64,000 nucleotides of DNA, from NCBI RefSeq assembly GCF_025200715.1, contig NZ_CP104143.1:2108001-2172000 (forward strand), given 5' to 3'. Positions within the stretch are counted from its first letter, which is position 1. Each line of letters opens with the position of its first letter. Shown here piece by piece: positions 33,235 through 35,103 of the stretch. Source of the DNA: Rhizobium sullae. Lineage in GTDB: Bacteria > Pseudomonadota > Alphaproteobacteria > Rhizobiales > Rhizobiaceae. A program made the position numbers and the translations under genes. The notes below the pieces were generated by a model that was not told the DNA's origin, made no database searches, and was given only the letters and a program-made list of their open reading frames with translations.

Positions 33235-33817
33235 CCGCATAGCGCGCCATCGTGTCGACTTCGAAATTGACGAAGTCGCCCGCCTGGCGCTCGCCCCAGG
33301 TGGTGACCTCGAGCGTGTGGCGGATCAGCAGGACGTCGAAATCCGTTCCATTGACGGCATTGACCGTCAGCGACGTGCCATCGAGCGCGATCGAGCCCTT
33401 GGGCGCCACGAACTTTGCAAGATGCTCCGGCGCACGCAGGCGGAAGCGGGTCGCGTCACCCTCGGTGGTCACCGACAGGATTTCCGCCTTGCCGTCGACA
33501 TGCCCGGAGACGATGTGGCCGCCGAGTTCGTCGCCGATCTTCAGGGAGCGCTCGAGATTGACGCGGGTGCCTGATTTCCAGTTCGTGAGCGTCGTGAGCC
33601 TCAGCGCCTCTTCCCAGGCCTCCACCTCGAACCAGCGGCCGTTGCTGCCTTCGCCCGGCAGGCCGGTTACCGTGAGGCAAATGCCCGAGTGGGAAATCGA
33701 CGCACCCATATCGATGGTCTTGGGGTCGTAATTAGTCGCGACGCGGAGCTTCACACCCTCGTTCATGGGCGAAATGGATTCGATCGTGCCGATATCGGTG
33801 ACAATTCCGGTGAACAT
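33197..33817 (-). CDS. ribE: Riboflavin synthase (alpha subunit)
   Basis: The 206-residue protein has the two-fold repeated lumazine-binding domains. The first starts MFTGIVTDIGTIESI and carries SISHSGICLTVTG. The second contains GGHIVSGHVDGKAEI and SIALDGTSLTVNAV. It converts two lumazines to riboflavin and a pyrimidinedione. Its ATG overlaps the ribD stop (TGATG), so translation is coupled. The symbol ribC is also used in some organisms. Confidence 0.95.
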   Translation of the reverse strand: MFTGIVTDIGTIESISPMNEGVKLRVATNYDPKTIDMGASISHSGICLTVTGLPGEGSNGRWFEVEAWEEALRLTTLTNWKSGTRVNLERSLKIGDELGGHIVSGHVDGKAEILSVTTEGDATRFRLRAPEHLAKFVAPKGSIALDGTSLTVNAVNGTDFDVLLIRHTLEVTTWGERQAGDFVNFEVDTMARYAARLAEFPAARTE

Positions 33818-35103
33818 CAGGATTCTCTTTCGTATTCGTCCAGCCGGTCGTCGCCGAACATGAATGTGCCCTTGTGGACAAAACCCGGTGGCATATCGGT
33901 CTTCGTCAAAGGCGATTCAATACCGCCTTCGCCGATGATCACCTGCCCCTGGTAAAGCTGGATGCGGTCGACGAGACCGACGTCGAGGAAAAGCCGCGCC
34001 GTCTTCGCGCCACCCTCGATGAGGAGCGAGGAGATGCCGCGCGAGGCAAGTGCAGGGAGCAGCACTTCGGGATGGTAAGGATTGCAGTAAAGGATTTCGA
34101 CGCCTGCGGATTCCAGGGCTGAACGGCGGGTTTCGATTTCGAAGGTTTCGGCGAATGGCTTACCCCCCTCTGCCCCGCTGGGCATCTCCCGCACAAGTGG
34201 AAAGATTGGACGAGCGTGGGCTGCCTGCCCCTCATTCTCGGTCACGGGGGTCGAACTATCGCCGCCGGATTTTCTGGAATTAGGATCGTGCTGCTCGCCA
34301 ATCTCTCCCGTTGTGGGGGAGATGTCCGGCCGGACAGAAGGGGGGGCCTCGCTGGCAACCACGATGACCGGCACGTCTCGCGCCGACCTGACCAGCTTGC
34401 TCGTGAGCGGCAAGTCAAGCCAAGGATCAAGCACGACCCGCACCGGCGACAGCGATTGCAAGCCCGGCGTTCGCACCGTCAGTTCCGGATCGTCGGCGAT
34501 CGCCGTGCCGATGCCGACGAGGATGGCGTCGGTTTTGGCGCGGAGCGCCTGAACCTGCGCGCGCGCAAGCGGGCCGGTGATGGCGATCTGTCCCTCGCCT
34601 TTGCGGCCGATCATGCCGTCGGCCGAAACGGCAAGCTTGACGGTCACATAGGGCCGGTTCTTCGCCTGCCGGGTGAGATAGCCGGCAAGCGAGCGAGCGC
34701 CTTCCTCCTCCAGCACGCCGGTGTCAACCTCAATACCGGCGTCGCGCAGCATGGCGATACCGCGGCCGGAAACGCGGGCGTCAGGATCCGTAACACTGAT
34801 AACAACGCGGGCGACACCAGTAGCGATCAGCGCTTCCGCGCAGGGCGGCGTCTTGCCGTGATGCGAGCAGGGTTCGAGCGTCACATAGGCGGTGGCGCCG
34901 CGGGCAAGATCGCCTGCCTCGGCAAGCGCCTGCGGCTCGGCATGCGGACGGCCCCCAAGCGCGGTAACCGCACGCCCTACGATTTCGCCGTCTCTGACGA
35001 TAACGCAGCCGACGGAGGGATTAGTCGAGGTCTGGCCGAGATGCAAAAGACCAAGACGGATTGCCTCGGCCATGAAACGCTCGTCCTGCGGCCCCGTGCT
35101 CAT
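33817..35103 (-). CDS. ribD: Bifunctional diaminohydroxyphosphoribosylaminopyrimidine deaminase/reductase
   Basis: The 428-residue protein has an N-terminal deaminase with the zinc motifs PHAEPQAL and PCSHHGKTPPC (residues about 52-90). The C-terminal reductase domain includes RPYVTVKLAVSADGMIG and LLIEGGAKTARLFLDVGLVD. It catalyses two early steps of riboflavin synthesis. Family members are usually about 360-370 residues. The excess sits at residues about 253-314, a hydrophilic stretch (NSRKSGGDSSTPVTENEGQA) encoded entirely by a repeat element at 34162-34347. The frame stays open, so a functional enzyme with a surface loop is plausible. Confidence 0.93.
   Translation of the reverse strand: MSTGPQDERFMAEAIRLGLLHLGQTSTNPSVGCVIVRDGEIVGRAVTALGGRPHAEPQALAEAGDLARGATAYVTLEPCSHHGKTPPCAEALIATGVARVVISVTDPDARVSGRGIAMLRDAGIEVDTGVLEEEGARSLAGYLTRQAKNRPYVTVKLAVSADGMIGRKGEGQIAITGPLARAQVQALRAKTDAILVGIGTAIADDPELTVRTPGLQSLSPVRVVLDPWLDLPLTSKLVRSARDVPVIVVASEAPPSVRPDISPTTGEIGEQHDPNSRKSGGDSSTPVTENEGQAAHARPIFPLVREMPSGAEGGKPFAETFEIETRRSALESAGVEILYCNPYHPEVLLPALASRGISSLLIEGGAKTARLFLDVGLVDRIQLYQGQVIIGEGGIESPLTKTDMPPGFVHKGTFMFGDDRLDEYERES
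34162..34347. repeat. RIME-like palindromic element inserted in frame in ribD
   Basis: The left arm (34162-34209) and right arm (34298-34347) are long inverted repeats of about 48 bp, with some mismatches, around an 88-bp centre. Each arm contains two smaller palindromes: GTCCGGCCGGAC (34324-34335) and a CTCCC...GGGAG hairpin on the right, and their diverged versions on the left. The ATCTCCCxxxxxTGGGGGAGAT pattern and the GGGGGG ends are like the rhizobial intergenic mosaic elements (RIME). The length, 186 bp, is a multiple of three and contains no stop in the ribD frame. Confidence 0.75.

Follow-up and report, generated by a model that had tools for sequence, protein, structure and literature searches.

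Why should a bacterial enzyme be interrupted by a long inverted repeat that its own reading frame runs straight through? The ribD gene of Rhizobium sullae raises this question. It lies in the window analysed here, a stretch of 64,000 nucleotides on contig C1 of the R. sullae genome (G000), and an earlier note on this DNA had described within the gene a 186-bp element that has inverted-repeat arms, lacks in-frame stops and lengthens the protein. The element was further assigned to the RIME family and likened to the palindromic elements of Rickettsia. The explanation that we consider best as a whole, at a probability of about 0.78, is that of an old, in-frame insertion tolerated by the enzyme, with a near-neutral peptide and with arms that are kept alike as DNA.

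An inverted repeat inside the ribD reading frame

The two arms of the element (Table 1) are inverted copies of one another, agreeing at 38 of the 47 positions and differing at nine, and the full 186 bp is free of stops in the ribD frame, as had been described. Smaller palindromes within the arms, also part of that description, were recovered as two hairpins per arm, one small (TGYCC..GGRCA) and one larger (ATCTCCCCC..GGGGGAGAT). The coding-strand RNA of the element was predicted to fold with an energy of -103.8 kcal/mol (z = -6.1), a value equalled by none of 200 dinucleotide shuffles. A model of the arm, R1, was built from 15 arms of G000; both ribD arms were among these 15, so their R1 scores are not independent. 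At its default settings, a repeat finder left the long ribD arms unreported and gave one other 19-nt pair, and a search of Rfam produced no convincing match, the best being a microRNA family across the whole element, which reached 24.2 bits where the gathering score is 137.

Table 1. Coordinates of ribD and its internal repeat (window positions)
Feature	Position	Strand	Basis
ribD CDS, 428 aa, deaminase and reductase domains	33817..35103	-	single RibD match in G000; Pfam
palindromic repeat with two arms, in frame, RibD residues ~253-314	34162..34347	.	blastn, model R1, fold, AlphaFold2
arm 1, downstream arm in coding sense, read IFPLVREMPSGAEGG	34163..34209	+	model R1, 64.8 bits
inter-arm spacer	34210..34297	.	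relatives with equal-length spacers: drift at every codon position
arm 2, upstream arm in coding sense, read PPSVRPDISPTTGEI	34298..34344	-	model R1, 64.8 bits

At the protein level, Pfam places dCMP_cyt_deam_1 at residues 7-104 and RibD_C as two stretches, the best of which covers residues 152-257. The RibD of a named R. sullae isolate (L161) is identical. An AlphaFold2 model based on an alignment of 50 RibDs had a mean pLDDT of 85.8 and dropped below 50 only at residues 261-314, between a strand (246-250) and a helix (317-332). The model matches solved RibDs (3zpc, 2b3z and others), as well as the reductase domain of Brucella (7lrh, 37-38% identity). According to this prediction, the position of the insert would be compatible with the fold, and the repeat is probably read as a floppy, disordered loop, in line with the loop that had been anticipated for it.

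Copies elsewhere in the genome and in other genes

The element was also expected to recur in its host genome, and it does. A blastn search of G000 with the 186-bp segment, run before R1 was built, returned 38 matches (E <= 10); outside ribD, 17 matches had E <= 0.002. R1 identified nine arm pairs and three weak hits, with all of the pairs being located on C1 (near 402, 580, 706, 720, 1107, 2142, 2365, 2506 and 3371 kb). Three of the nine pairs lie in frame within genes, namely ribD, uvrD (1107 kb) and ftsY (3371 kb). Domain matches flank the element on both sides in RibD and UvrD, and the FtsY copy separates the conserved N-terminus MALSFIKKVFTFG from the SRP54 domains. We read the remaining six pairs as intergenic, several of them directly 5' of a recognisable start; four of the six are spanned by a long frame, and none of these four frames had a Pfam match. 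By our own reading, the neighbouring genes at these six pairs are presumably smc, glcF and similar.

Two relatives gave a comparable picture. Among the matches listed, 22 loci of G028 and 27 of G107 were inspected, and four in each genome were genic (RibD, CobN twice and FtsY). In the 31 spanning frames scanned at the other loci of these genomes, Pfam matches were either one-sided (CcmB, SLT_2, DUF1697, CobU) or lacking, and the loci were left out of the count of genic copies because the matches stay on one side of the element. Two contigs of G107, C5 and C33 (L389 and L390), stop 27 bases past an arm, as would be expected if the repeats break assemblies. Repeat matches also occurred in 103 annotated plasmid records, including arms in plasmid records of S. 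meliloti; an annotated gene lay beneath the match in none of the 40 plasmid records listed, several of which are without any annotation.

The arms occur as inverted pairs, and the element has inverted ends. A first reading of solo arms was dropped: a pattern scan gave one arm at seven of 36 loci, yet contig ends truncate two of the seven and the partner arm is present in four (L375, L381, L382 and L392). An A stands before the C-run in 53 of 58 arms, preceded by T (27) or C (26), and this YA ahead of the C-run was all that was seen in the arms by way of a target-site duplication. Stops are rare throughout the family. Forty of 62 distinct arms are stop-free in all six frames, compared with 9.0 in mononucleotide shuffles, and all 56 whole elements possess at least one open frame, compared with 45.6 in shuffles. 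This low stop content describes a trait of the repeat family rather than selection for coding. Since the arms seldom carry a stop in any frame, insertion into coding sequence would come easily to such a repeat.

In UvrD, an insert of 44 aa between LAQR and CCVGDDDQSIY was found in an unbroken alignment in seven of the 148 genomes searched, with G111 and G128 giving weaker matches only. Thirty loci were read in all, and the site was empty in the 23 other than these seven. The arm order is inside-out relative to RibD, and the reading frames are the same. At the FtsY locus, arms were present in all 11 repeat-bearing genomes examined and in none of nine repeat-free ones, these genomes having been chosen by hand; arms were also found in a twelfth genome, G112. 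The FtsY arm match of G021 is weak (20.9 bits). In G025 (L338), the open frame of 364 aa is limited to query residues 161-519 and has the repeat at its start, consistent with either a break or a later start. The five FtsY sequences displayed with both arms (G000, G102, G123, G112 and G086) all read the left arm in a shifted frame, which suggests that they go back to a single event.

CobN has two sites. The first was surveyed in 20 genomes, five of which have two in-frame arms (G116, G107, G113, G028 and G011) and five an empty site (G102, G021, G086, G050 and G048). G064 has the left arm only, G129 is partial, G123 has a broken frame, and five were left unread; in G000 and G138, another palindrome family takes the place of the ribD repeat. 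In G000, a weak R1 match on C1 at about 1324223-1324271 (L290) corresponds to another palindrome (CTTCTCTCC..GGGGAGAAG) that is in frame in CobN. The CobN domain match runs across the insert in G107 and G113. The five genomes with two arms at the first site also have a second arm pair at their CobN locus, and an in-frame reading of this second pair was seen in G064. The CobN frame of G123 (L305/L349) is broken at the repeat, whether by a true disruption or a sequence error; insertions may therefore not always be harmless.

Gain, loss and drift in the RibD loop

A RibD match was found in all 148 Rhizobium genomes searched. Of these, 130 (one per species) were analysed, and a RibD frame was obtained from each; in the remaining 18, the match extended only to about residue 256, mostly in a 408-aa frame, and the analysed members of that group are without the segment. 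R1 detected at least one arm in 66 of the 130 RibD loci, comprising 65 of 68 in one set and one of 62 in the other. The segment is thus far from universal in rhizobial RibDs, just as its arms are not confined to ribD. Arm-free RibDs (n = 64) measure 360-398 aa and arm-bearing ones (n = 66) 398-468 aa, with a median of 435 and one exception that ends at 326, which agrees with the claim that the element explains the extra length. The RibD of G115 (L091) breaks off within the element, either truly or through an assembly fault.

Both arms were readable by peptide pattern in 42 RibDs, and further RibDs have partial deletions or extra nested inserts, with the reading frame kept. Nested in-frame inserts within the arms are of YRGRATGLDPSFGPP and GEVRSGEAGAIDPV types (L064, L072, L073, L074, L081, L087 and L094; L076, L082, L083, L089 and L094). 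Some arm-free alleles (L128, L095, L090, L119 and L121) retain the right end of the element, GAGGGGG, as a scar and are therefore read as losses. The RibDs of R. leguminosarum Norway and USDA 2370 (L179 and L180) are also without the segment. Nine of the 148 genomes are R1-negative; eight of them have a RibD of 369 aa and one (G091) a RibD of 394 aa, and no arms were found in any.

It is conceivable that the loop is instead a hot spot, with most copies representing recent, independent insertions at one permissive site. Among 80 loci of other named genomes, the repeat fills, besides that of Rhizobium species, the RibD loop of two Agrobacterium (L184 and L186, one of them a metagenome bin), an unclassified Rhizobiales isolate (L196) and one uncultured Rhizobium bin, while the loop of Ensifer IC3342 (L183) and Sinorhizobium RM56 (L187) harbours a different insertion. 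The L183 insertion is partly palindromic, with a 21-nt inverted repeat; no inverted repeat was found in that of L187. The Agrobacterium, unclassified Rhizobiales, Ensifer and Sinorhizobium cases would suit a hot spot, as would the highest arm score of 77.8 bits, which six of the scanned RibD loci attain. We nevertheless consider the idea unlikely: the equal-length spacers of the main clade align with one another, their divergence approaching that of flanking third positions, and several arm-free alleles of that clade bear the right-end scar. The spacer of G107-type RibDs resembles, by eye, the spacer of another copy in G107, so that a single insertion may not account for all lineages.

How the parts of the insertion have diverged is informative with respect to what preserves them. 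Among the 42 RibDs with two readable arms, pairwise differences at codon positions 1/2/3 were.131/.085/.427 and.097/.050/.375 in the flanks, reflecting normal protein constraint, and.057/.089/.095 and.078/.073/.094 in the arms. Arm divergence is about four times below that of flanking third positions, or four to nine times below it when the sullae/mongolense clade is set aside. This combination of low divergence and no codon pattern argues that it is the DNA of the arms, and not the encoded protein, that is conserved. In the 19 RibDs with a 28-codon spacer, the spacer differed by.223/.324/.279, compared with.38 and.30 at flanking third positions; because it diverges at all codon positions, it behaves as neutral filler of about the age of the clade.

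The same data bear on a selected protein function of the segment in RibD, for example as an interaction loop. The segment has been kept in many species, and at the amino-acid level the arms differ by.15, much as the flanks do (.15 and.12), as such a function would predict. However, neither arms nor spacer have the codon pattern of a constrained protein, and the segment has been lost repeatedly. Moreover, in the RibD of G123 (L088), two compensating frameshifts enclose the spacer and right arm, which are read in a different frame, with both arms still scoring 66-67 bits. A protein function is, in our judgement, highly improbable.

Selection on the arms could also act through a hairpin in ribD mRNA or DNA, with a role in RNA processing, translation pausing or protein binding. 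Along with the low divergence of the arms relative to flanking third positions and the strong RNA fold of the element, the pairing itself would seem to recommend this: in 65 RibD arms chosen from 133 matches, hairpin pairing is intact in 94.2% of cells, a level reached by none of 500 shuffles, and one pair alternates between UA (27) and CG (25), with 25 sequences being double-changed at one pair. The covariation is nonetheless that of one pair and two family-wide subtypes. Double-changed pairs number 1, compared with 1.5 in shuffles, and further pair types 10, compared with 10.7, while the covariation score is higher in a control slid by -2 (0.123 versus 0.104). In addition, arms in intergenic DNA and in unrelated genes look the same, mongolense relatives have degraded arms yet an intact gene, and sister species, including R. 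leguminosarum, have lost the element repeatedly. With these points against it, a hairpin role in ribD appears quite unlikely.

Copying between repeats is another means by which the arms could stay alike. Across 35 distinct pairs, similarity between the two arms of the same RibD exceeded that under permutation (p = 0.002; 20,000 permutations); without the sullae/mongolense clade, p was 0.18 when every column was used and 0.025 when the two-subtype pair was left out. Arm score also correlated with copy number, as counted among the matches listed (up to 41) with phylogeny uncontrolled (rho = 0.43, p = 0.003, n = 45); without the same clade, rho was 0.26 (p = 0.10, n = 40). These comparisons are no more than suggestive of gene conversion.

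Under the preferred reading, that of a tolerated in-frame insertion, a copy of a repeat family widespread in Rhizobium would have entered a loop of the RibD reductase domain long ago and would then have been inherited along the sullae/mongolense and etli/leguminosarum-type lineages. Translated, it would form a disordered loop some 60 residues long, tolerated by the enzyme; the peptide would be near neutral, with nothing required but a length divisible by three, no stops and a harmless site. The arms would be kept alike as DNA, most likely via gene conversion, be it between the two arms or with copies elsewhere, and occasional loss would proceed through in-frame deletion joining the flank to the element's right end.

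A more tentative extension, toward which we are somewhat sceptical, is that such DNA-level copy correction, between arms or genomic copies, sets the amino-acid sequence of essential-enzyme loops in rhizobia. Arm codons would then be alike at all three positions, and residue pairs would co-change (V..D with A..G; P..A with S..T) owing to the pairing of their codons in the DNA hairpin, and not through protein contact. As a caution, residue covariation in loops of this kind may stem from DNA hairpins.

Relation to known palindromic repeats

Coding palindromic elements are already known from Rickettsia and Wolbachia. Rickettsia palindromic elements (RPEs) are short palindromic repeats of about 150 bp, located in frame in unrelated genes as well as between genes (PMC10969869), and inserts like the Wolbachia palindromic elements (WPEs) are described in addA, addB and priA (PMC4224334). 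The Wolbachia elements were reported later than those of Rickettsia. Both hosts are obligate intracellular bacteria. The comparison with Rickettsia that had been proposed for ribD is apt and now reaches further. The rhizobial repeat (186 bp in ribD) is likewise palindromic, occurs in frame in ribD, uvrD and ftsY of G000 and in cobN of relatives, and has copies read as intergenic, and insert-free orthologues exist for all four genes. By analogy, it would work like an RPE, as a tolerated loop insertion, the likeness being one of description and not of directly compared sequences. It differs in having a free-living host with a large genome, and in its DNA-conserved arms, drifting spacer and scarred in-frame losses.

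What appears to be new here is the occurrence of coding palindromic repeats in rhizobia, free-living bacteria with large genomes. Copies in RibD, UvrD, FtsY and CobN of free-living bacteria with genomes of 4-8 Mb would weaken the need to invoke genome decay. Furthermore, the RibD loop is found filled, nested, scarred and empty across the 130 species, which allows a coding repeat to be followed through its life history, and the long forms of RibD, CobN and FtsY in rhizobia require no functional explanation. A 2024 review considers a comparable mechanism in other prokaryotes conceivable and contains neither "Rhizob-" nor "RIME" (PMC10969869).

Other short repeats can be compared by description only. 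The A, B and C palindromes and REPs of S. meliloti are short intergenic palindromes of unknown function that number in the dozens in rhizobia (PMC2573895), and this paper and a second one on S. meliloti likewise treat RIMEs as intergenic. The ribD repeat resembles the former in being short and palindromic, and its arms occur in S. meliloti plasmids. The RU elements of enterobacteria, small mobile repeats whose frames form part of annotated genes (PMC2759123), share intragenic frames with the ribD repeat and differ in their hosts. Titles and abstract openings of the open-licence literature held no report of coding copies in rhizobia, and a literal search of the literature for the arm letters matched 69 papers, none of the 20 listed bearing a related title.

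The RIME label, finally, was rejected. RIMEs, or Rhizobium-specific intergenic mosaic elements, were reportedly described by Osteras in 1995, and we take chvI-chvG to be the published RIME locus (RIME1). The RIME and the ribD repeat are both short palindromic repeats of rhizobia, whereas the latter is also intragenic, and R1 had no match at chvI-chvG in any of 11 genomes, which argues that the ribD repeat is not RIME1. Four of these 11 loci (L399, L401, L403 and L404) possess, as judged by eye, a different element, some 105 bp long and containing two palindromes, which is perhaps the true RIME1.
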